Source: Linnemannia hyalina (taxonomy: Eukaryota > Mortierellomycota > Mortierellomycetes > Mortierellales > Mortierellaceae). From it: a DNA stretch of 64,000 nucleotides. Below the pieces are notes generated by a model. That model worked only from the letters and a program-made list of their open reading frames with translations. It was not told the origin of the DNA and did no database searches. The stretch is from positions 620,001 to 684,000 of the forward strand of contig JAHRHY010000013.1 of the NCBI GenBank assembly GCA_019671135.1. Reading direction: 5' to 3'. Shown here piece after piece: positions 20,805 through 57,130 of this stretch. Position numbers and translations under genes: made by a program. The first letter of the stretch is position 1. Each line of letters starts with the position of its first letter.

Positions 20805-20878
20805 CGCTCCTGGGTGGGCTTGAACCACCAACCTCCTGATTAACAGTCAGACGCGCTAGCCAATTGCGCCACAGAAGC
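20805..20878 (-). tRNA. tRNA-Asn (anticodon GTT)
   Basis: The minus strand folds into a canonical 74-nt cloverleaf. A seven-pair acceptor stem (GCTTCTG with CAGGAGC, one G-T pair) is followed by D-arm GGCGCAATTGGCTAGCGC and anticodon loop CTGTTAA with GTT. The T-loop is TTCAAGC and the discriminator base is G. There is no intron. The nearest genes are unrelated. Confidence 0.96.
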
Positions 20879-43990: not shown

Positions 43991-44636
43991 ATTAGCAACT
44001 CGTATCATTCGACCTCGGAGTTTTGGAGAGAGAGAGCAGGGGCAGCAATAACAGCAGTAACAAGACGAGGAACTGTGGGAAGATGACGTGGTAGTGGAGG
44101 CGGAGGTGGAGGTGGAGGTGGCGGAACAAGCACAAGCAGAGGCAGAGGTGGAGGAGCAAGGATTCTCTCTTGTTCTGTCGCTGCTGCGACACTCCGAGAC
44201 CCTAGTCAAGATCTCCCCTTTCAACTGTTGTTCACTTGCAGGAGGGTATAGTGTGGTTGTCACGACTTGAGAGCCTGTAACGCCAAATCGCCTTGGTGGA
44301 CGACACTCCAGGGCTGCTTTGGCAAGTGGACCAAATGTCAGTTCCGGACGATCGGACGGTTGGAGCTGCCCTGTATGACCGAGTATTGGTCGAGGCTGTC
44401 GAACACCGACTTTTCTATCTCCAAGCGGAACTGTTTATTCGTCAGATGTTTGCCACCAAAGCGGACTTGTTCTTTCATCTTTTTGCCACTAGGACGTGTC
44501 AAAAAGTGCGGCGTGCCTTTTGCACCCATAAAGTACAACTTGGTACGCTCCTCAACTATCCTTTCCAATTATCTCTTTCAGTCTTCCTCTTTACCTCCCA
44601 CTTCTATTTCTCTTCCAAGCTTAACATCCCTCCGCC

Positions 44637-46448
44637 ATGATCTCCCCAGCATCCCAGTTCTTCTCGATTCCAGAACTTTTTCAAGCACTCGAACCCTTGC
44701 TGTCAACACCATCTGTCGTTGCACTTGCACAAGTCAATCACAAACTGAACGAGATCTACACCCCTCTCATCTACCAAACAATCTCCATTCGTTCAAAACC
44801 AGCGAAGAACGTCTTCGACTCTCTCGACTCCCTCGACATGAGCTTTCGATATGCACGCAAGATGACACTCAACGGGATCCTCTGTGGCCCATACTCTAGG
44901 AGCCTCAAGTCCTTCGAAGATCAGTACCACCACACCAGCCAACCCTGCAGTCCACCCATCGATACCCACCAGCAGCTTCCTCCCTCGCCGCCGCGGATGA
45001 GCAACTTGACACAACTCCAGAGCTACGGATCATATTTACGACAAGCCGACGCGACTTACACCCACGACTATTACAGCGGCGACTACCTGGCTCACCTCTG
45101 CCACATCCTACGATTTTGCCCACAGCTCGTCGATTTATCCATGCGCGACGTCCCGGTTCACAACGAGCAGGACATCCTTCTCATCACCAGGACTCTATCC
45201 GGGCTGGACTCGCTGAGAGACGTGAAATTGGACCTTCGTTTGTGCAGCAGGAGCACCCTTAGGAGCAAAGTCTTTTCGCCCATCTTTTTCGCGCTTCCCA
45301 GGGGATTAGAGACTTTGGACCTCACGCTGCAGAGCCAAATAAGTTCCGATGTACGGCCGGCGGCGAGTAATGAAGCTTCTAAAGTGACGGCAGAACAATC
45401 GAGACGACGCCAGGAACCACTTTGCAGGCTAAGGAGCTGGCTTGGGTTGGAAACAGCAAAACACGACTTGGAGTCAATTACCGCCTTTCTGAGCCACTGT
45501 CCGGAGCTCGAGCGACTACGTGTGCCCGAATACCTCTCGGAGGAGGATATACCGGAAATCGCCACCGTCATCACGACTTCCTGTCCAAAGTTGAAACACA
45601 TCCATCACTGGTACAGCGGACAGGACCCTCTAGCGGTCATGTTGACCACCCTTATAACCACCATGGCTCAGGACACGCTTGTGTCACTAGAGTACGGCGG
45701 AGCAGAGGACGAGAACCATAGACTCGGGACTTCCCTCCAACGACACTTTGGTTCTCTGAAGAGCATTATTATGCGGGTGTGTTATCACATGGAGAGCGCG
45801 ACCATTCAGACCATTCTTGCTGGTTGTCGGGAACTGGAGGAGCTGACGATTGAAGGCGGGTATGACCCGCACGAGATACGGTTGGCAGACGCTGTTGCTC
45901 AGCAGTGGGCCTCTACGAAGATTCGACGATTGGTCATCGAGATCAACATTGGAGACATTGAGGATCTCAGGAAGGAGACCTTCTATTCGCGACCACTCCC
46001 AATTGTTTTCAATGATACCACGGTGGACCGAATGCGACAGCTGAAGCGATTGTACCAGCAAATTGGATCGCTGCATGAGCTGGAGAATTTGGACCTGAGG
46101 ATCACGGTCCCTGCTGGTGCTATGGACGGGCAGGACAATTTCCTGTGCTATCGCAATGTTTCGTTTCCTGGTTTGATGGCGCTGGCTGATGAGGAGGCGG
46201 GGCGTCCAGGATATTTGCATCTGTTGGCTGGGCTAAAGAACTTGAGGACGCTTCAGGGTTCGTTTAGTGCGAACACCGAGGAGACCAAGTTGACGATCGA
46301 CCAGGATGTGTGCACCTGGATCCACCAGCATTGGCCTCGTATTGAAAAGATTGCGTTCTTCAGCCGGGGCACCACCCTGACAGCGCCCTTTCAATGGCTC
46401 GTGGACCAGCGCGCCAACATCCAAACACCCCTGGATTTATTTGAATAA
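44637..46448 (+). CDS. F-box/LRR protein, cluster member 1
   Basis: A single exon of 603 codons starts at ATG 44637 after a pyrimidine-rich leader. The F-box-like N-terminus (FFSIPELFQALEPLLSTPSVVALAQVNHKL, residues about 8-40) is followed by LRR-type repeats (HCPELERLRVPE, SCPKLKHIHHW, GCRELEELTIEG). It ends in the cluster's shared C-terminal block (FPGLMAL, RPGYLHLLAGLKNLRTLQGS, then HWPRIEKIAFF at about 570). It is predicted to act as an SCF ubiquitin-ligase adaptor; the target is unknown. The stop codon overlaps an AATAAA polyadenylation signal. It shares order and strand with the members at 46.8, 58.7 and 61.5 kb, implying tandem duplication. Confidence 0.85.
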   Translation: MISPASQFFSIPELFQALEPLLSTPSVVALAQVNHKLNEIYTPLIYQTISIRSKPAKNVFDSLDSLDMSFRYARKMTLNGILCGPYSRSLKSFEDQYHHTSQPCSPPIDTHQQLPPSPPRMSNLTQLQSYGSYLRQADATYTHDYYSGDYLAHLCHILRFCPQLVDLSMRDVPVHNEQDILLITRTLSGLDSLRDVKLDLRLCSRSTLRSKVFSPIFFALPRGLETLDLTLQSQISSDVRPAASNEASKVTAEQSRRRQEPLCRLRSWLGLETAKHDLESITAFLSHCPELERLRVPEYLSEEDIPEIATVITTSCPKLKHIHHWYSGQDPLAVMLTTLITTMAQDTLVSLEYGGAEDENHRLGTSLQRHFGSLKSIIMRVCYHMESATIQTILAGCRELEELTIEGGYDPHEIRLADAVAQQWASTKIRRLVIEINIGDIEDLRKETFYSRPLPIVFNDTTVDRMRQLKRLYQQIGSLHELENLDLRITVPAGAMDGQDNFLCYRNVSFPGLMALADEEAGRPGYLHLLAGLKNLRTLQGSFSANTEETKLTIDQDVCTWIHQHWPRIEKIAFFSRGTTLTAPFQWLVDQRANIQTPLDLFE

Positions 46449-46577
46449 ATAGATATGCATTTATGGCTGAATCCTTTCTGGCGCGTTGTACGCCACCAAA
46501 TCCATCTCTCTTGACACTTGGAACCCACAAAAAGAAAAAGACGACAGACACATTTGCACTCTCTCCCCTTTTGAAGA

Positions 46578-46601
46578 CACACACACACACACACACACAC
46601 A
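46578..46601. repeat. (CA)12 microsatellite
   Basis: About twelve ACAC dinucleotides lie between F-box genes 1 and 2, in the 3' flank of the first. No function is visible. Confidence 0.95.
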
Positions 46602-46827
46602 CTATTTTCTCCTCCCTCTAATCCCTCGTCTCTGTCCTCACCATCACCACCGGTTCACTGAAAGCCACGCCAAACTCCAACGGCAATCAATAGGAATAAG
46701 CGCAAAATAAAAAAAAAAACTTTCTTTCTCCTTCTCATTCTTAGCTCCTCCTCCTAACCTCTTCTCCCATTCAATCTTTTCATTCCATCTTTTCATTTCA
46801 CTCATCAAACACATCACCACCACCAAC

Positions 46828-48453
46828 ATGGTGTCTGCTGTCGCCCGATTCTGGGATCTACCCGAGCTCGTCGAGATGGTCCTCTCCTTCTCTACAAGTC
46901 AATCCATCGCCAGGCTCATGAGGACCAACAGGTCACTTTACAGGAGCGGCCCCACAGTCCTCTACCACACTCTCAATAGCTTCCACACTTGGCGAATGTT
47001 CTCTGGCTCGGCGGGTATCAGGGGCCTCATTAAGCACGCCGAACTCGTCCGTTCCATTTCCTTGGCTAGAGAGTTCTGTCTCCGCTTTATCGTCGGTACC
47101 TCTTCTAACTCTTCTGAAGCGTCATCGTCTCCTCGAGTTGCCACTGTCTTTCCGCACTTACCGAACCTGACGTCCTTCACCTGCGAATTGGAGCGTTCGT
47201 ATGGTTTCTCGCACTCCCAGTCCGAGGCTGCCATCGAGAAGGACGCTTTCCCGAAGTCGATTGCTCGCGCCCTTCAAGGATGCCCCCGGCTTGTTAGCCT
47301 GCAGCTGGGCCAGTTATTCATCGACGACGAGGAGTTCATTGACTCTCTCTGTAAGAGCTTTAGTGGACTTAAGATGCTGGACGCGATTGACTTGAACCTT
47401 CTGATTCCCAAAGTTGGTCTAAGTGACGAGGTTGTGGCCAAGTTGTTCTTCAGCCTCCCACAATCAATTAAGAAGGCGAGCATTGTTGTTACCTCTCGAT
47501 ACGGCACGAGCGATAGGGCCACGAATGATGACAAGTCCCCACCCACTTCCCCTAGGCGAAAGGAGCCTCTCAGCAAGTTGACGAGTTTACGTGCTCAGTT
47601 TCCAGGTGGTTTCGACGCCGATACGGTTCTTGCCATGATGGACCATTGCCCCGAGATCGTTACCCTAGAGGTCCCTGTTCTCGAACGCGGCCAGGATGAG
47701 GACTATGTCTCCCAGCACATTGTCGATTGCTGCCCCAAGTTGGCGGATCTCTCCATCCACTTTGACGACAACTGCGATGTCTCCACGTCGCTGATGACCG
47801 ATATTATCAAGAACATGCCGGAAAATACGCTCCAGTCGATTTATGTTGAGGGGTACCATGACCACAACACAGATTTGGCAGACTCGCTCCACAGACACTT
47901 TGACTCGCTGATCAGGATCGAGTTTGAGGAGACCCGTCATTTTGACGGATACTTTCTTGAGACCATTCTCCACGGATGCCAGGTGTTGGAGGTACTCAAC
48001 GTCGACGGCAGGAGGGTGGAGTGTTTCGAGGTGCCGTTGAAGGATATCTTGCGCTACAAGTGGGTCTCACAGTCACTCCGGTACCTCCAGTTTGCGGTCA
48101 AGTTTCCCAACATGCGCGAGCTCGATGCGATGGAAGTTCCCAGCGGGTCCAAGGCCATGTCAAAATCGGGGGTCATCACGGAGGCACAAAAGAAAGGCAA
48201 TACTTCCTTGGGAAAGCTGTACCGCAAGATCCGATTCCTGAAGAGCCTCGAGAATCTTCAATTGCAGCTATCGCTCGAGGATTGGGAGGAGAGCTTGATG
48301 TTTACGTCGTCGGGGCCTGGGTTCTTATATGGAGGCGAGGTCAAGTCGGGCCGGCCGCTCTCCTATCATCGGTTCGAGACGCTGAAGGAGCTCAAGACGA
48401 ATACTATGTATGGTTGGGGATCGGATAGCGATGACTATGCTTCTTCTCATTGA
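46828..48453 (+). CDS. F-box/LRR protein, cluster member 2
   Basis: A single exon of 541 codons has its start in context CACCAACATGG. The N-terminal F-box reads FWDLPELVEMVLSFSTSQSIARLMRTNRSL. LRR-like segments follow (GCPRLVSLQLGQL, HCPEIVTLEVPVL, CCPKLADLSIHF, GCQVLEVLNVDG). The C-terminal block is divergent and lacks the WP-x-LE ending of the other members, so it may be shortened. A close relative of its C-terminal region (EWASQVL...SLTGTLYRRL) survives in the relic at 57.3-58.4 kb. It is convergent with the XPG-Fanzor gene, with only 236 bp between the stops. Confidence 0.85.
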   Translation: MVSAVARFWDLPELVEMVLSFSTSQSIARLMRTNRSLYRSGPTVLYHTLNSFHTWRMFSGSAGIRGLIKHAELVRSISLAREFCLRFIVGTSSNSSEASSSPRVATVFPHLPNLTSFTCELERSYGFSHSQSEAAIEKDAFPKSIARALQGCPRLVSLQLGQLFIDDEEFIDSLCKSFSGLKMLDAIDLNLLIPKVGLSDEVVAKLFFSLPQSIKKASIVVTSRYGTSDRATNDDKSPPTSPRRKEPLSKLTSLRAQFPGGFDADTVLAMMDHCPEIVTLEVPVLERGQDEDYVSQHIVDCCPKLADLSIHFDDNCDVSTSLMTDIIKNMPENTLQSIYVEGYHDHNTDLADSLHRHFDSLIRIEFEETRHFDGYFLETILHGCQVLEVLNVDGRRVECFEVPLKDILRYKWVSQSLRYLQFAVKFPNMRELDAMEVPSGSKAMSKSGVITEAQKKGNTSLGKLYRKIRFLKSLENLQLQLSLEDWEESLMFTSSGPGFLYGGEVKSGRPLSYHRFETLKELKTNTMYGWGSDSDDYASSH

Positions 48454-48634
48454 ACTTTTATTTATGTTGTAAATAAAGCAAACTCTGAAATTTTTCGTAT
48501 GCGTGAGTGGATTTTAACAAACGCCATTTATTTTCATTCCTCCTCTACTCCCTCCTCACTCCATCTTCTCCTCCATCTCCTCCACTCCTCCTCCCCCTTT
48601 TTCCCCCCCTTCCAATAAAACAAGTTTCTTTGCC

Positions 48635-48660
48635 TATCCCTTAATCCGTAGAAGGGGATA
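48635..48660 (-). other. Hairpin just 3' of the Fanzor stop (candidate guide-RNA end)
   Basis: The sequence reads TATCCCTT, a 9-nt loop, then AAGGGGATA: an eight-pair stem with one bulged G. In the Fanzor sense it starts 30 nt after the stop codon. A second short symmetric motif (CTATAG, 7 nt, CTATAG) lies between it and the stop. In TnpB and Fanzor systems the guide RNA is encoded at or just beyond the 3' end of the nuclease gene, so this is a positional candidate only. A transcription-end hairpin is the simpler alternative. Confidence 0.4.
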
Positions 48661-48689
48661 ATGTAAACTATAGTTTCTATCTATAGAGG

Positions 48690-51600
48690 TTAGGTTTGTT
48701 TGGGGGGTCTTGCAAGGGGCTCGGGCCGTCCTAGAGACTTGAGGTACTGTTCTCCGATCAAAGCGATGTTGTGCGCCCCCACTCCATCTCGGTGAATCCA
48801 CCGAGTGCACTCAACACAGGCGCATGTCCTCATCGACGGCTTGGCGAGGCGGGTGGCTCGGTTCTCAACCACACATGTTGGACACATGGTGGAAGTAAGA
48901 TACTCGTCGACCAGGGCAGCCTTGTATCCGAGCGCAGCACTCTATCGGTGCAGGAATAATAAAATTGTGTTCCATAGATTTGCCATGGCATCATGAGTGC
49001 ACACAATCAAGACAAAAAGATACAACCATGCCTTTCACAATTTTTTTTTGCCTTTCGTACCTGCTGTAAAAGACGTCTGAGAAACGTGATGTGCACCGAA
49101 GAGAGATTAAAGCCAGACCGGAAGGTTCCATTCCCCAGGGCAAAAAAAACTTTTCTTTGGTGGACGGGTACGCCCTCACATGCCTCATCCACCATCCGCA
49201 AAACGCCAGCGACGGCCAGATCCAACTCCGACATTTTCGCCATTCTGTGCTCGTGAACCGCTACCTTCCATTCTCTTGACGCGTAAATCCCGTGGATCAG
49301 CGGTTCCTGCTCGTAGTACTTCTTGTGAGCTGCCGTCAAAGCATCCAACGAGGTGTCGTAGTTCGTTGAGGGGAGAGAATTCTCTAGGTCGTGGACAGAC
49401 GGGAGAGTGGTGAGCTTGTCCAGGTCGGTAATCCGTGTCCAAAGGGATGAGTCGACAACATCGCCTGGACCAGCTGTTGGGTGTCGCCTTTTCCAATGCT
49501 GTTCCCAATCTCGGAAGGCCAGAGTAGGCTGGTATAGGGAGGCCCTCTTGATCAGCAGATTGATGACTTTTCCACCGGGAAGTGTCAAACAAAATGCACC
49601 ACTCACTACCTCTCCGGGATCAATACCGACGACAATGACTGAATCCAGGTCGTCGCCAAACGCGTCGATAAGATGCTGCCGCGTTGGATAAAGCTTCTCG
49701 ATCCTAGAAAGAAACTCACTGTAATTTGGGGATTGGCGGGGTTTTGTAAGGTCATACGCGAGAATCTGCAGCTGGTGGCCATCCGTCCTGATATAGTTGT
49801 TGAGGGCGTAGCGGTAAGAACGCGGCTGCTGACGTGGGGTGGGAAGAGGCGGTGGGGTGGAGGTCGTCGATGACGATGACGTTGATGATGGCAACGGTGG
49901 TGTCGGGGCCGTGAAGGAGGCGTTGTGCCGTTCTCGGAAAAAATTGACCTTATTCGTCAAATACCGTGCGAGCTCTAACTGTCCGTAGATGTGTGGATGG
50001 GCCTCCTCACGCTCAGCCATGGTTGTTGTCCTCTTCCCGTATGTCGTCTGCTGCTTATTCCTGGCTTCCTTGATGACATCTCGGTCACCGATGAATAGTT
50101 CTTTGATCACCTCTCCGTACGAAGAACGCTGTTTTGCCGCTGCCCAGTTGTGAGTGTAGCGGGTGTCCTCCCATACGTTGTCCAACTGAGCTGCCTTCTC
50201 TCCCCAGAGAAGCGCAACCAACGCTTCCTCGTTGATGTCGATGAAGGAATCGCTCATTTTGGCCTGGGTGCAGAACCGGGGCCGCTTGGATGATGATAAG
50301 AGGAGGAAATATCGCCAGCAGAGTTGAATATGACCCGGCTTGAAAATGATCTTCTTGGATCGCTTGAGGGCGTCGTCGTCGTCCACACCCTCGTTAACGT
50401 CAGCAGCCCCGGCATCACCACCAGCGTCGGTGTCATCTTGATCTATTTCAGGAAGACCATCGCAATCAATGGACAGCTTGGAGAGCTGGCATTGCATAAA
50501 CAAAAGGAGTGTTAAAATATGTTTTACACCCCATTGAAAATATTTGACAAACTGAATGGATATGGATAGATGGTACCTTTGTTCTAAGAGTCTCCGGTAT
50601 TCTCCTGTAATGCAGTTTTTGATCTAGGCAGATCTTGGGTGCAAGTTCCGCGATGATATTACTCAAAGCCAGATCCGTTGAGTTGAGGGCTTTGAACCCT
50701 GGGCACAGCGTCTTCTTGAACTCGTTAAACGTCGAGATTGCTTCAGCGACAGCATCCTTGCTCTTGTCCGACGCGGGTGGACGTCCTTGGGGGACAATGG
50801 AATTCCTCAAGACGAAGGACAGTAGGTTTTGGACAAACCTTTCCGCCCAATCGGAATCCAGGATCTTCTCCAGGAAGCTCTCGTCCGGTCCATCCTCTGC
50901 CTGGTTCAGTCCAGTCTCGATCAGCGGCTGTAGAATGCGCATCTCGATAAGCTTGTACACAATGTGTTTGGCGCTATTGACGGTAGAGACTGCCGAACTC
51001 ACGTGTTGGGTTAGCTGCGCAACCTCTGCTTTCGACAGATTGGTTGATCTTCCTAGGCAGCCTTGCAGGGATCCAGTCGTGAGCGTGACCGTTGCGAAAA
51101 CAGACTGGAACGCTCTCTTCAAGGCCTTGGGTCCAGCTATTCCTTTAGGTTCGCCAAGGAGTTTTTTCTTTTTCTTCTTGGCAGCGGGGGCAGGCACTTG
51201 GTTGATACGGGGGGATTGCTCCTTGGGCTTTGAAGGACGGGGGGTCGACGGCTTCAATCCTGAAAGTTCCACGACATCAACAGGGCTGGCCTTTTCTAGG
51301 AAAACAGTGTTCGGCACATAGCGATCTTGCACGTCTGTGCGCGAGCGGAATCTAGATGCGATTTTGCAATGAGTTGTGTTAAGGTGGAAATATATGTATA
51401 TAGCTGGACAAGGCGGAGAAAAATACCAGGAGAAAAGACATACCTGGAACGACGCCACTTCTGTCGTCGCCGCTGGAGGGCACGTGAACCATGTCGGCGT
51501 TGTTTTTTAATCTTTTGCTTGTGCGATGGTGGATGTTCGGCTGGGCCATGCGTCTGCCTGATGGAAGGTGATCCCGCTGATGTAGCTTGCGGATATGGTG

Positions 51601-53321
51601 CTGATCCTGCCTTGGGTGCCGTTGGGAGTGGTGGTGGCGTTGCCTCTGCGTCTGTCGCCGCCCCCTGAGAAGCTGGATCTACTAGCAGCCCAGGCGGCAA
51701 CGATCCCGTCCGACTCGCGGAAAAGCGACGCCAATCATTGTAGGCTTTGTTGAATTCTGTTTCCTTAATTATGGCCATCAGTCGTGTGTGTGTATCGGCC
51801 GCCGGGCTGATCCTGTTGTTGTCCAGAGTGGTTTCCTCGCAAAGCACGAATGTCTTGAGAGCATGGCCGAATTCTGTCACATCTACACGCAGCTGTCGAT
51901 CGGCCGTTTCGATCCTCCTCAGATCCTTGTCGTGTGCCTTCACCGTTGGGTTAGGATTGCATCGCAGTCGACGACGTGCGCTTTGGGTGGCTGAGTCCTT
52001 GATTGTACGGGCCTTTTGGTGTATTATGTCAAGGTAGCGCCTAACATAGATCCGAACCACCTCCACTCGATCTTGGCCAACCGTTCCATCAAGACCTGTC
52101 ATCTTGAACTGACGGATCGTATCGACATTGGATGTCAAGCCATAGGAAAAAACTCCGTTGGTGTAGTCGTTGTTCGATACCAGAGCGGCAAGCGTTAGAT
52201 GTACAGGGGTCGGAAGGCCATGCTCGTTCAGAAGCTCATCTTTGTGGAAAGTAGTCCAAGTGTTCTTGACTGGCATGGTGACGGACATGATTGACTCGAA
52301 TGCCATGAGATCGGAGTCCTTGGTGATAACTCGGATATCTCCGGGTACGGCAGCGTTGTTGACTGTCCGCGCAATGCACGTGTCGCTTTGGTTGAGACAT
52401 TGGCAAATCGTCCATCCACTCTGACGCAGTACTTCCGAAACGGCGCGCAATGCCTCCGGTGGTGCTCGGTACGACGCCTTCAGGCGTTTGTATAGCTGTC
52501 TTTTGTTGTGCAGCTTGCCCTCCGTGTAATCTCGTTCAAGTGTTTCCAACTGCTTGGACAGCGCCTGATCTCGTTTGCCGTGCGCCCATTCCTTCTCCAT
52601 TGATCGTAGACCATCCATATGGAGCATTGTGATGTCCTTAGACAATCGTGAGGAGAGAATCTTCTCAATTGCGGCTCCGACAGATCGAAAATCCTATTGG
52701 AAACAGCGAATTATTATTTTGGTCACAGCAATTTAGCTTTTCTCCAGATAGCATGAATCATTTAACTTTTTTCCAGATCAGTACAATCCATTTAGCTTTT
52801 CTCCAGATGGTATGATTTATGGTACTTACAATGACCTTTTCCTGGGCGCAGATTGTGGTCAGAGCGCCGCTCTCGTCGAACCGAATCTGGGATGGCTGTG
52901 TTGCCAGCAATCGCTGCATGTCTTCAACGAGAGTCGACGACCCGGAGCTGATTTGGAGGGGTCGGAGGCGTTTGTTAGAGGAAGCAGTGTCGGCGGTGTC
53001 CGCATCGTCGACGTCGGCTGCTCGTTTTGGGCTGGATGAAGCCTGCCGTGTAGATGTTGTTGTGTGAGTAGACATGCCCGCGCCATCGACGTCGGCTGCT
53101 CGCTCTGGGCCGGATGAAGCCTGCTGTGTCGATGTTGTTGTGTGAGTAGATAATTGACATCGGGCGGACTTTGCAGCGAACTGCACTGTTTTATGGAAAC
53201 TCAGCGAGTTCACCAACGCAAAAAACATCGACGCAAAATCTACTTCACATCTCTTCTTGGTTAGATCTTCCTCCACTCCGTCTGTCGCCTTGATCCACCC
53301 GGTGAGATTTGTGATGCCCAT
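48690..53321 (-). CDS. XPG/FEN1-like nuclease fused to Fanzor (TnpB-like) nuclease
   Basis: Five exons, 53321-52830, 52693-51444, 51351-50577, 50485-49061 and 48941-48690, have phases that all agree and give 1,397 aa. Residues 1-420 resemble XPG/FEN1: MGITNLTGWI start, VDFASMFF (Asp28), a 26-aa repeat insert, CLNQSDTCIA (266-268) where FEN1 has its Glu-rich loop, ITKDSDLMAF (Asp290, Asp292) and SNNDYT (Asp340). Residues 440-840 are a Pro/Lys-rich linker and helical region. Residues 840-1397 are Fanzor: RuvC-I VVGIDPGE (Asp1128), LGNGTFRSGFNLSSVH, VDEYLTS (Glu1327), zinc ribbon CPTC...CVEC (1334-1359) and RuvC-III HRDGVGAHNI (Asp1366). Fanzors are RNA-guided DNA endonucleases. The FEN1 first Glu is Gln here, so flap cleavage may be weakened. 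Two separate overlapping genes are unlikely, because no stop or new start separates the halves. Confidence 0.88.
52995..53150 (-). repeat. Two 78-bp tandem units encoding a 26-aa repeat
   Basis: Two adjacent 78-bp units encode STHTTTSTQQASSGPERAAD... and STHTTTSTRQASSSPKRAAD.... They fall inside exon 1 of the XPG-Fanzor gene, between the N-region Asp and the catalytic I-region. The period is a multiple of three, so the frame is kept. It is probably a flexible insert in the spacer that XPG proteins have at this place. Confidence 0.9.
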
Positions 53322-53929
53322 TGCTGTAATTCTAAGTAATTCACAATTGAAGGTTGATGGTTAGCGCGAGTCTGATTTCATAGATTCTCTCAATAGCACG
53401 GGTCGCAATCACTTTCAACATCGGCCTTACATAGGTCTGTTGAAGCTCAATTGAGAAGGGGGGCAGTTTAGGAGAAGGGGGAGAAGGGGGCAGTTTAAAA
53501 GAAAGGGACACGAGGCGATGCAGAACGGTGAAAAAGAAGCTGGTGGTCTTCATTCACTCAGCCTCAGCCGCTCACTCAGTCACCGTGAACGTCAGAGCTA
53601 TGAGCTAGGGGTGAGCGAATTAAGGGGTAGGATGGTTCTTTCTCACCAATCCCATGCATTTCAGCCTCAGTGGACAGACACTGAGATGCAACGCTATCGG
53701 CGCGGGCACAGGACCCTTTCTAAAACTCAGGGCGCGTATGATACTCCTAAATCATTCTTGGTGCAAAGAAGACCTTGCAGAGAGAGCAGATTCGCTGGGT
53801 GGGTTGAGGATATGCTTGTGTTATGCCTTCTCGTTTATTTTATCTGCACAGGATGCAGCCAGTCATGAGTAGTTCAGTAATTCATCGTTTGGTCCCTTGA
53901 ATTTTCTCGAGACATAAGGGGATACTTAG
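53322..53929. other. Upstream region of the XPG-Fanzor gene, no gene seen
   Basis: About 600 bp lie between the Fanzor-fusion start and the piggyBac relic. Direct GGGGGCAGTTTA repeats lie near 53,459 and 53,488, and TTAAGGGG (TTAA is the piggyBac target) at about 53,620. The promoter of the fusion gene must lie here. No protein is supported. Confidence 0.5.
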
Positions 53930-55023
53930 GTAGGGGTGTCGCGACATTTGGCGGACACTATCAGATCCTTAGCCAGGAACTATCGGAACTCCCTTTGATG
54001 CATGGAAGAGCCGAAGAGTTTGTTGATAAGGTACGCATTGATGATTGTTGTATCCAGTAATCAGAAGAAGATCGGAGCCCATGCGCGATAAGTCCTGAGC
54101 TGAGTCGAATAGTAGCTGCATAACTGGTCGGCAATGTCGACTCCGTTCATGTGGTGGTTGTTGTCATCGATGATTTTGGGATGGGAAGTAACGCCATGGA
54201 ACGTCCTTTATGAGCAGCCCGCACTGACTTTGCGCTGGCGCTTGTCTCTCGAGGGCGTCTGCGATCTTGGACAACGGATCAGTCGTTGTCGCCGAGGCTG
54301 AGGGCATGGACGGTGAAGAGTATGGAGACAGGTCTATTGTCCATCCAGAACACGGTAAGAACCTGAAGTGGGTCTGGCGATTGTCGCGGTTAGCTTTTAT
54401 AGCCTAGCAGAGGGCAAGAGTGGTAACTCTCTTCGTTAAATAAAAGAAAAGGAAGCGAAGCACCTATCTATCACAGGCTCTACTTTTGAGAACCAATGTT
54501 GCTCAGGCTCGTTGGGGTTGGAGACATGAAAAAAACGCTTCAGTTGTTCGAAGCGGACGAGGGACATGAAGGTAGTGATGTTGTGTTGAGGACATTCAGG
54601 GAAGGTTGACCAATACTCAGAGACAGAGTTCTGCCTGAACACGCCCATGTAGACAATGATGCCGAGGAATGTGCGCAGTTCGTCAGGTGTGGTCTTTACC
54701 CATTGGCGCGATCCCTCTCCTGTGCCGGCTCCTTTTGATGCTGCATATGCGTTAGTGTTGTCTGCCAAATCCGTCAATACTGGGTCGGAGAAGATTTTCT
54801 TTGTCGGTGGAGCTGAAGCATCTATCACCCCTTCATCTCCTGCCTTCTCCTCCTCCTCGTCCCCAGAGCTATCTGTACCAGGCGTTGGTCGAGTACGACA
54901 ACGGACCGAAAACAACAACTCCTCCTCCTCCTGTGCCTCGTCAACCTCCTCCGCAGATGCTACTACGGTGCCTTGAGAGTCAGAAACGTCAAAGGAACCG
55001 AGGAACTCGAGACTGGAGTCCAT
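53930..55023 (-). pseudogene. piggyBac-type transposase relic (DDE_Tnp_1_7)
   Basis: A 5' part opens at the ATG of MDSSLEFLG (55023). After an acidic stretch it contains family text: TTPDELRTFLGIIVYMGV, YWSTFPECPQHNITTFM and RFFHVSNP, then WFSKVEPVIDR to about 54,465. Later pieces in other frames are VFWMDNRPVSILFTVHAL (about 54,300-54,360) and HHMNGVDIADQL (about 54,120-54,160), the latter matching the region of the last catalytic Asp pair. The roughly 200 residues that should lie between, including the first two catalytic Asp residues, are missing, and stops interrupt the rest. It cannot be active. It sits directly upstream of the XPG-Fanzor gene on the same strand. Confidence 0.75.
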
Positions 55024-55202
55024 GAGTGAGTAGGGTGAAGTCGATGTGTGAGAAAAAAAAGGTAATGGGTTGCGGGATGATGATGAGAAAAAAAGAGCTG
55101 AATTCGAGAGTGATGAATGTAATGTGACGAAGACGACAAGGACACTCCCACGACGTAGTCTTCTAACCCGTTTTATTGGAAACCTGGATAAATCGAAAAA
55201 AA

Positions 55203-55224
55203 TGTGGTGCAAATTTGCACCACA
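55203..55224. repeat. 22-bp perfect palindrome
   Basis: TGTGGTGCAAA is followed immediately by its exact reverse complement. It lies 180 bp 5' of the transposase relic start and 20 bp before the next F-box pseudogene. Subterminal palindromes of this kind occur in some piggyBac-like elements, so it may mark the element's right end; it could also be an operator-like site. Confidence 0.95.
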
Positions 55225-55242
55225 AACAAACTAGGGGATAAT

Positions 55243-57130
55243 GGACTCTGCTCGTGATCGCTTCTTCGGTGTTGGGGAACTCATGCTCATGCTCGGGGAG
55301 TTCATGCCAAAGTCGTCCGTCTCTCGGCTCATGCAGACCAACAAACACTCAAACACTTCTACGACCTTTTCACTCCTGTGCTCTTTCACACTTTGGATAG
55401 TGACTACCTAACAAGCCTGCCCACCACACCGGACTCCTTGATGGTTCTCGGAAAGAACGTCCGTCATGTCCGGTCCCTGAATATATCCCGCAACTTTTGT
55501 TCGCTCTACTTTGCTGGGCTCATGGCCTTTCAGGACCTGCTGGACGCTGCCCTTACAGTCGACCCAGATGGGTTCCATCGACATATCCTCGCACGGGTTT
55601 TGTGATGCCATTATCGCCGCTGGTTCACCTCACTAACCTCGAATGCAGAACTGATCACCCCACCCTTGAAGAGTTTTGCCGGACTGGAGCATCTCTTGCT
55701 CAGCTCTGCTACTTCATCCAACAAGCCCCCTTCTCCTGGAGTTGACCCTGTATGAAGTCCCCGTCCACGATGACGACGATGTCCGCCTCCTTGCCAAGAC
55801 TGTCGCCACATTGACCCACTTGGAGACGCTGTTTCTGACTGTATCGCCTTCTCCGCAACAAAGGATCACCAACATTACCCCACGCATCTTCTTCAGCTGC
55901 TCGCCATCACTCAACTCGTTCACCGTCAATATCGTTCACTGTGCTATACGTAGAATACTTGTGGTCCCGCCAGCTCACTCCAACAGCTCCGTCGAACCCT
56001 TCACACCCCGGCGGGACCCTCTCCCTCGATTGACAGCATGGCAAGGCTCCAAGGCGGATTTCGTGAACGCGGATTCGATCTGCTCCATCCTCGAACACTG
56101 CGGATCAATCACTCGTCTTGAAGTCCCTTCGTACAAGAACCCCAAGACTACAGCCGTATCGCCAAGTGTATCGTCGACAACTGCCCAGACTTGAAGCACC
56201 TTGGAGACGACACACAAAAATATCACGACCGGTCTGGAGAGTTTGTCGGCAAGGTTCTTGCGGCTGTTGCCGAGAATAGTCTCGAGTCGTTCTACATCAA
56301 CGGCTTTCAGAACGAACGACCTCAACTAGGACAGGCCATCCAGCGACATTCGGGAAGCTTGACCGTTATCGAGTTCTACAACTGCCATAATATTTCCAGC
56401 GCCACCATCCTTTCGATTCTTGTCTCCTGCGTCGCCTTGAAAACCTTTATCGTCAACGAGGGCGTGGGTGGTGGTGACGATATCAGCCTTCATCTCGCGG
56501 ACGCTGTCTCACAGTCATGGGTGTTTTCAGAATCTCCAACTTGAGATCAGCATCGGCGATCTAAACACGCTCAGAAACCCGTTGTATTCTCAACCAGCCC
56601 CCGTTGTTTTAACGGAAGAGGAGACCGAATGGATGTCGCAGCTGGGGAGGTTCTATCATCAGATCGGGGTGTTGAAGGAGCTGGAGGGACTGGAGTTGAA
56701 GGTGGCGATAGACGACTCCTCAAAGATCGTGAGCGCCGATTTAGAAGACGACGATGAAGATGTGGTAGAGTATGAGGCCTCTGCTGACGACGGCAGTGAC
56801 GAAGACGAACTCTTTAGCGACCACGATAGCGACACGGATTATTTTAGTTATCAAGACGTGTCGTTCCCTGGTTGGCTCTCGCTCGATAATGTAGGAAAAG
56901 GTTGGCCCGGTTACCTTGAGACGTTGACGGGTCTCACTAAATTGAAAGTTCTCAGGGGTTCGTTTGGAGCGATGACGGAGGAGGCACGACGTACGATGGG
57001 CGCTAGGGAGTTGGCTTGGTTTGCGGATCATTTGCCTGCGTTGGAGGAGGTTGAATTCTTTCGGAGTAGCGTCAGCCGACATAGCTTTCGCTGGCTCAAG
57101 AAGGAGAGGCCCGATCTGAAGATGGTTTAG
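55243..57130 (+). pseudogene. F-box/LRR pseudogene of the cluster
   Basis: The full architecture of the cluster family is readable, but in at least five frames. The F-box start is FFGVGELMLMLGEFMPKSSVSRLMQTNK. Then come FHTLDSDYLTSLP with NVRHVRSLNISRNFCSLYF, LTLYEVPVHDDDDVRLLAKT, SGSLTVIEFYNCHNIS and ISIGDLNTLRNPLYS. The C-terminal signature WPGYLETLTGLTKLKVLRGS plus LPALEEVEFF ends at 57,130. Single-base shifts lie near 55,340, 55,590, 55,730, 56,190 and 56,530. The last 220 codons are intact and include a long acidic insert. The number of breaks rules out splicing. The clean collinearity suggests fairly recent decay. Confidence 0.85.

Follow-up and report, generated by a model that had tools for sequence, protein, structure and literature searches.

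Why would a fungal transposon carry two different nucleases in one reading frame? The question is raised by a minus-strand gene of Linnemannia hyalina (contig JAHRHY010000013.1; the stretch of 64,000 nucleotides from 620,001 to 684,000 is called the window throughout), in which an XPG-like nuclease comes first and a Fanzor last. Five exons joined at GT-AG borders (Table 1) give 1,397 codons and a stop, with zero internal stops in the joined frame; the exon coordinates given by an earlier reading of this DNA (the original prediction) proved correct to the base, as did its count of codons. Other GT/AG pairs close by also give open frames, and the exact exon borders therefore rest on conservation. 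That prediction had also proposed the fusion order, which is supported by sequence, by fold and by conservation across families and genera, and it had named as tests an XPG hit in the first half and a TnpB/Fanzor hit in the C-terminal part. Results of both kinds were obtained, the one as an XPG fold in the model of a relative and the other as a Fanzor match in the C-terminal half. The two halves would presumably be translated from one spliced mRNA.

The nuclease ahead of the Fanzor is about 450 residues in size and EXO1/FEN1-like. A structure model of a relative of the window protein adopts the XPG N and I fold with H2TH; EXO1 is its best structural match, and FEN1 and XPG/RAD2 also match, a ranking that does not fix the substrate. 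The predicted activity is that of a structure-specific 5' nuclease. With the catalytic carboxylates labelled by FEN1 numbering, six of the seven are invariant in alignment A3 (6 rows, 28-48% identical to the window protein). No XPG domain was detected by Pfam in this protein, and none over cut-off in 6 family representatives; at three homologous sister loci, XPG_I is over its curated cut-off. An ordinary host repair gene was considered and rejected, because the curated XPG_N matches lie elsewhere (6 on C2, C48 and C50) and the window gene sits inside a multi-copy element. The low-complexity part of exon 1 contains a 76-base unit present as a pair, 88% identical (window 52997-53150).

The second half carries the Fanzor1 motif as the abstract of PMC3627910 gives it, D-X(125-275)-[TS][TS]xx-C4-RD: D1128, 201 residues, TSTM, C4 and RD. 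Also present are the Fanzor1 marks described in excerpts of PMC10711439, namely a DPG in RuvC-I (GIDPG, 1126-1130), an alternative Glu (VDEYL, 1325-1329) and a TDG in WED (RTDGH, 1072-1076). Of these, E1327 is the putative alternative Glu, assigned by a weak GtFz1 alignment and by eye. PF07282 is over cut-off in the C-terminal part. The AlphaFold model of this half is poor; in a low-confidence model of the relative P0011, residues 339-645 align with SpuFz 22-307 and correspond to window residues about 666-972. RNA-guided DNA cutting is the activity predicted for this half.

Annotated proteins with parts of both halves occur in Entomortierella parvispora (P0004, P0007, P0009), Dissophora ornata (P0003), Podila humilis (P0005), Modicella reniformis (P0006), Linnemannia gamsii (P0008, P0012) and L. 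zychae (P0011), and all these genera belong to the Mortierellaceae. P0004, an independent model, covers 100% of the query at 49% identity, and three more cover 52-83%. Many of the models are incomplete: P0005, P0011, P0012 and the L. hyalina protein P0010 begin partway through the XPG part, while P0010, like P0003 and P0006, also ends before the zinc ribbon. Within L. hyalina, where copies fall into families A to E, four families (A, B, C and E) have the intron between the halves at the same position and in phase 2. The distances of the XPG half correlate with those of the Fanzor half (Mantel r 0.84, 0 of 2,000 permutations, in 10 of the 12 proteins, with the garbled or truncated P0005 and P0011 left out; r 0.79 over all 66 pairs). 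The XPG half is conserved less than the Fanzor half, with nonsynonymous distances of 0.54-0.73 vs 0.31-0.54; synonymous sites are at or near saturation. The public L. hyalina models P0001 and P0002, named after piggyBac, start in a transposase remnant that is joined to the XPG-Fanzor frame, and P0001 skips the first XPG exon. No viral relative was confirmed in IMG/VR contigs (82 pattern matches with alignment A4, 21 with A3), and alignment A1 as a query retrieved only its own first row among the 8,000 candidates that were scored, a search in which low-complexity words probably dominated.

How general is the arrangement in this genome? PF07282 has 91 matches, 90 of them over cut-off, and 80 XPG-like loci were obtained by merging the matches of the window XPG exon (68 rows) with those of the sister locus L091 (73 rows). 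An XPG-like stretch lies upstream on the same strand of 61 of the 91 zinc ribbons, at a median of 2.9 kb (1.3-3.9), a number that counts near-identical family copies separately and in which the frames of the halves were read in families A, B, C and E only. Thirty zinc ribbons have no such stretch and 19 of the 80 XPG-like loci have no zinc ribbon within 6 kb; at 5 of the 91, an XPG-like stretch stands within 6 kb in the wrong place. Counted by loci, copies included, no other Fanzor arrangement in this fungus is as frequent as XPG followed by Fanzor. Some 25 XPG-like matches taken at one point as solo were rejected as such, with a zinc ribbon downstream of many. There is a large sister group of XPG-like loci (G000 C48:174890, C44:133852, C13:858138, C4:1735674 and others), many with a zinc ribbon 3-4 kb downstream.

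The gene is cargo of a multi-copy transposon, a setting that the original prediction had missed together with the decayed piggyBac-type transposase and the right-end hairpins. The window copy belongs to family A, with 12 copies whose RuvC-exon protein is 94-99% identical apart from the window itself, some of them split or truncated; DNA identity is 99.1-99.9% over the compared 3' part. All 12 share the left end and all 12 the right end, one of these being interrupted by an insertion. Flanks past the left end are unrelated in 5 of the 11 other copies by BLAST, and in the remaining 6 as seen over 25 bases. The base directly in front of the left TA is T in all 12 copies, and the base two positions before that T is C in 10 of 12, against backgrounds of 0.23 and 0.24 at window TA sites. 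A TTAA target-site duplication is usual for piggyBac. None was seen here (12 left ends read NTTA/TCCCC and 11 right ends GGGATA/N, the slash marking the boundary, with TA at most shared), and we therefore call these elements carriers of a piggyBac-type transposase rather than canonical piggyBac. To judge by the ends, the duplication is probably TA.

The transposase of the window copy is, from its sequence, decayed, with an N-terminal third in open frame and a C-terminal remnant. Five family D copies have an open transposase frame of 563-616 aa, which lies 1.7-1.9 kb ahead of the XPG exon and on its strand; in the two copies of family C the frame is broken by one and three stops. Over all 67 piggyBac rows, 28 of the 80 XPG-like loci are preceded on their own strand, at a distance of up to 9.5 kb, by such a transposase or a remnant of one. 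The inverted repeat is better in family D, with TATCCCTTCAACCG at the left (two copies) vs TATCCCTTCGACCG at the right (six copies). In family B, the two copies L087 and L088 have a common left boundary that is not TATCCC, unlike in families A and D. The left 200 bases of family A recur elsewhere, in some cases ahead of family E copies.

Table 1. Features of the element in the window (position 1 is the first letter of the window)
Feature	Position	Strand	Remarks
Transposon copy, family A	48635..55240	-	6,606 bp; ends TATCCCC.. (left) and ..GGGATA (right)
Left target motif CNT-TA (here CATTA), candidate TAM (target-adjacent motif)	55239..55243	-	C 10/12, T 12/12, TA 12/12 copies
22-bp perfect palindrome TGTGGTGCAAATTTGCACCACA	55203..55224		just inside left end
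Transposase N-terminal third, open frame	54436..55230	-	piggyBac-type, PF13843 positions 8-115, E 2.5e-20
Transposase C-terminal remnant	54031..54195	-	PF13843 positions 294-349, one TGA inside
Exon 1	52830..53321	-	XPG N-terminal part (MGI.., first catalytic Asp is residue 28) and low-complexity stretch
Exon 2	51444..52693	-	remainder of XPG-like nuclease (D191, Q266/D268, D290/D292, D340) and basic linker
Exon 3	50577..51351	-	Fanzor half begins; REC-like helical part from about residue 660
Exon 4	49061..50485	-	WED with TDG (1073-1075); RuvC-I with DPG (1128-1130)
Exon 5	48690..48941	-	putative alternative Glu (E1327), C4 zinc ribbon, RuvC-III Asp (D1366), stop; PF07282 over cut-off
Hairpin 1 of candidate guide RNA	48668..48686	-	CTATAG-7-CTATAG; same hairpin in family B
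Hairpin 2 of candidate guide RNA	48635..48660	-	ends at transposon end; flank beyond would be guide

Some neighbouring sequences were noted in passing. At L088 (~695-1117, gene orientation), beside a family B copy, lie about 420 bases with TATCCCTTCC..GGAAGGGATA ends, which may be a non-autonomous element that shares the terminal repeats. Another family B copy, at L061, diverges from the others from ~2625, and its frames then resemble a Tc1/IS630-type transposase by eye; at L011 (~684-1099), an insertion of about 400 bases in the right end of a family A copy has 5 bases repeated on both sides. In the window (55241-56200, plus strand), an ATG stands directly at the left end of the element and opens a frame, MDSARDRFFGVGELMLMLGEF.., that then meets stops; this may be a relative, now decayed, of the genes at 44625-48453. 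The latter were labelled F-box/leucine-rich repeat by eye, and their sole Pfam match, for 44625-46445, is below cut-off. A tRNA-Asn gene lies at 20805-20878 on the minus strand.

What follows the stop codon bears on how the Fanzor half might be guided. In families A, B, C and D (11, 11, 2 and 6 copies), a right end of the form TATCC...GGGATA is followed by unrelated flanks; in family E, one copy (L078) was read to GGGATA without flank and L076 departs earlier. In all five families this stretch folds to a hairpin, preceded by one more in A, B and D and by two more in E; the inner stems vary from family to family. Rfam gave no match over cut-off in 48400-55600. According to excerpts of PMC10432273 and PMC10711439, Fanzor RNAs have the terminal inverted repeat and target-site duplication as part of the scaffold and the guide in the flank, and the right-end layout of the present families resembles the one described there.

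Taken together, the parts suggest a transposon-retention device, in which the Fanzor half would cut the empty site and the XPG half would process the break toward copy-back repair; we give this reading a probability of roughly 0.45. RNA from the right end, with the hairpins past the stop codon, would associate with the Fanzor half, its guide being the neighbouring host flank. The guide would match the empty site left by excision, or an allelic empty site, where the left motif CNTTA may serve as TAM and the Fanzor half would cut. The XPG half would then work on the 5' ends or flaps of the cut in the fashion of EXO1 or FEN1, and repair, templated by a sister or homologous copy, would restore the transposon rather than simply rejoin the ends. 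More tentatively, the machine may be self-contained, a single polypeptide that finds and cuts the empty site and processes it through its EXO1-like half, with recombination restoring the transposon. The original prediction had suggested that the fusion might process cut ends or flaps, or might mature its guide.

Several points weigh against retention. The evidence is good for the parts and indirect for the process: one mRNA, guide RNA, TAM, cleavage, resection and retention are all things that we infer, and the copy-back step would be borrowed from bacterial TnpB, in the model for which repair tends toward copying the element back. Of the 10 full-length matches to exon 2 in family A, 5 are interrupted by a stop and cannot encode the fusion, whereas the window copy is free of such stops. 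A site preference of the transposase may account for the target motif. Right-end folding clearly beats shuffles only in family B, less so in D and C and not in A or E (shuffles as good, of 200: B 0, D 8, C 10, A 44, E 36), and the first hairpin of family C appears only in the minimum-energy fold, where it extends into the coding end. The last hairpin is not independent evidence for an RNA, since its outer stem doubles as the inverted terminal repeat. For the Fanzor half, a PDB sequence search reaches GtFz1 only at E 0.047, and Foldseek of its model gave no match with E < 0.001. In the XPG half, the window's branch has Q where FEN1 has E158 (6 of 6 A3 rows, and all 8 of the 12 annotated relatives that have the column), a replacement that may lower activity, and the last Asp is replaced by N in 2 of the 12 relatives.

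The Q, with the weaker conservation of the XPG half, would fit a domain that does not cut and only binds branched DNA or tethers the Fanzor. We consider this improbable, given that the other six carboxylates are invariant among A3 rows sharing only 28-48% identity with the window protein and that the sister locus L091 reads E-A-D where the window's branch reads Q-S-D. Might the XPG half instead aid the guided cut itself, nicking the R-loop at its single/double-strand junction (two strands, two active sites) or trimming the guide RNA? XPG-family folds recognize such junctions and XPG cuts bubbles, and the fold matches XPG/RAD2 as well as EXO1 and FEN1. However, the best match is EXO1 rather than XPG, though such an order of matches does not settle the substrate, and in solved Fanzors, according to part of PMC11423790, one RuvC core makes the double-strand cleavage; this role seems unlikely, if less so than the non-cutting one.

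It is also conceivable, but again improbable, that the XPG half serves piggyBac-type transposition by trimming hairpins, flaps or gaps at the ends, with the fused Fanzor as a separate retention function. The 28 loci with a transposase or remnant upstream favor such a role, and a DEDDh nuclease in piggyBac elements was reported by Kapitonov and others, as cited in a passage of PMC3627910. In contrast, no such transposase lies within 9.5 kb at 52 of the 80 XPG-like loci, among them the 11 family B copies, in which XPG and Fanzor are still together. The differing 5' ends of the public models and the truncation of several relatives' models could point to an artefact in which an XPG-like gene and a Fanzor gene stand head to tail. 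This we regard as very unlikely, because a relative in another genus (P0004) runs end to end, with three more covering much of the length, and the splice between the halves is conserved in position and phase within a joined frame without stops.

The fusion matters for a debate that is still running, over what benefit Fanzors bring to their host transposons. A natural, conserved fusion of Fanzor with an EXO1/FEN1-like nuclease suggests selection on the fate of DNA ends after a guided cut, and it makes the retention hypothesis directly testable by mutating either half alone. The Q of one branch and the E of the sister locus offer a built-in comparison. Genome-editing groups build links between programmable cutters and end-processing enzymes by hand to favor recombination; here is a natural case. 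Jiang 2023 is reportedly a wide survey of Fanzors. The original prediction had not recognized the architecture as described, and literature searches, seen in part, on Fanzor/TnpB with XPG, FEN1, flap endonuclease, Mortierella or piggyBac returned no description of an XPG-Fanzor fusion, which does not establish its absence from print; nor do the portions consulted of PMC3627910, PMC10711439, PMC10432273, PMC11423790 and PMC12324416 describe one. An excerpt of PMC11071296 names 'candidate Fanzor flap endonuclease homologs' in two viral contigs without detail, from which it cannot be told whether a fusion is meant.

How, then, does the element compare with known systems? Fanzor1 as DNA-transposon cargo is known already, and in the published accounts, as far as their excerpts go, some such transposons have extra nucleases, there as separate proteins; the nuclease fused to the Fanzor is what we did not find described. 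The abstract of the published Fanzor1-transposon work does not name piggyBac as a host, and its 'IS4-like' may be near, because Pfam calls DDE_Tnp_1_7 'Transposase IS4'. With the piggyBac superfamily, the present elements share the DDE_Tnp_1_7 transposase or remnant and short terminal inverted repeats; they differ in showing TA rather than TTAA, in the added XPG-Fanzor cargo and, in the window, in the decay of the transposase. Compared with the EXO1/FEN1/XPG (Rad2) family, the window protein is transposon-borne, fused to a Fanzor, under the Pfam cut-off and, in its branch, has one carboxylate changed to Q. With Fanzor1 (SpuFz1, GtFz1, PpFz1), it shares TDG, DPG, the putative alternative Glu, the C4 zinc ribbon and RD, a REC-like part by the low-confidence model, carriage by a DNA transposon and right-end hairpins. 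It differs from those enzymes, and from all Fanzors in the portions of the literature searched, in the EXO1/FEN1-like nuclease fused in front.

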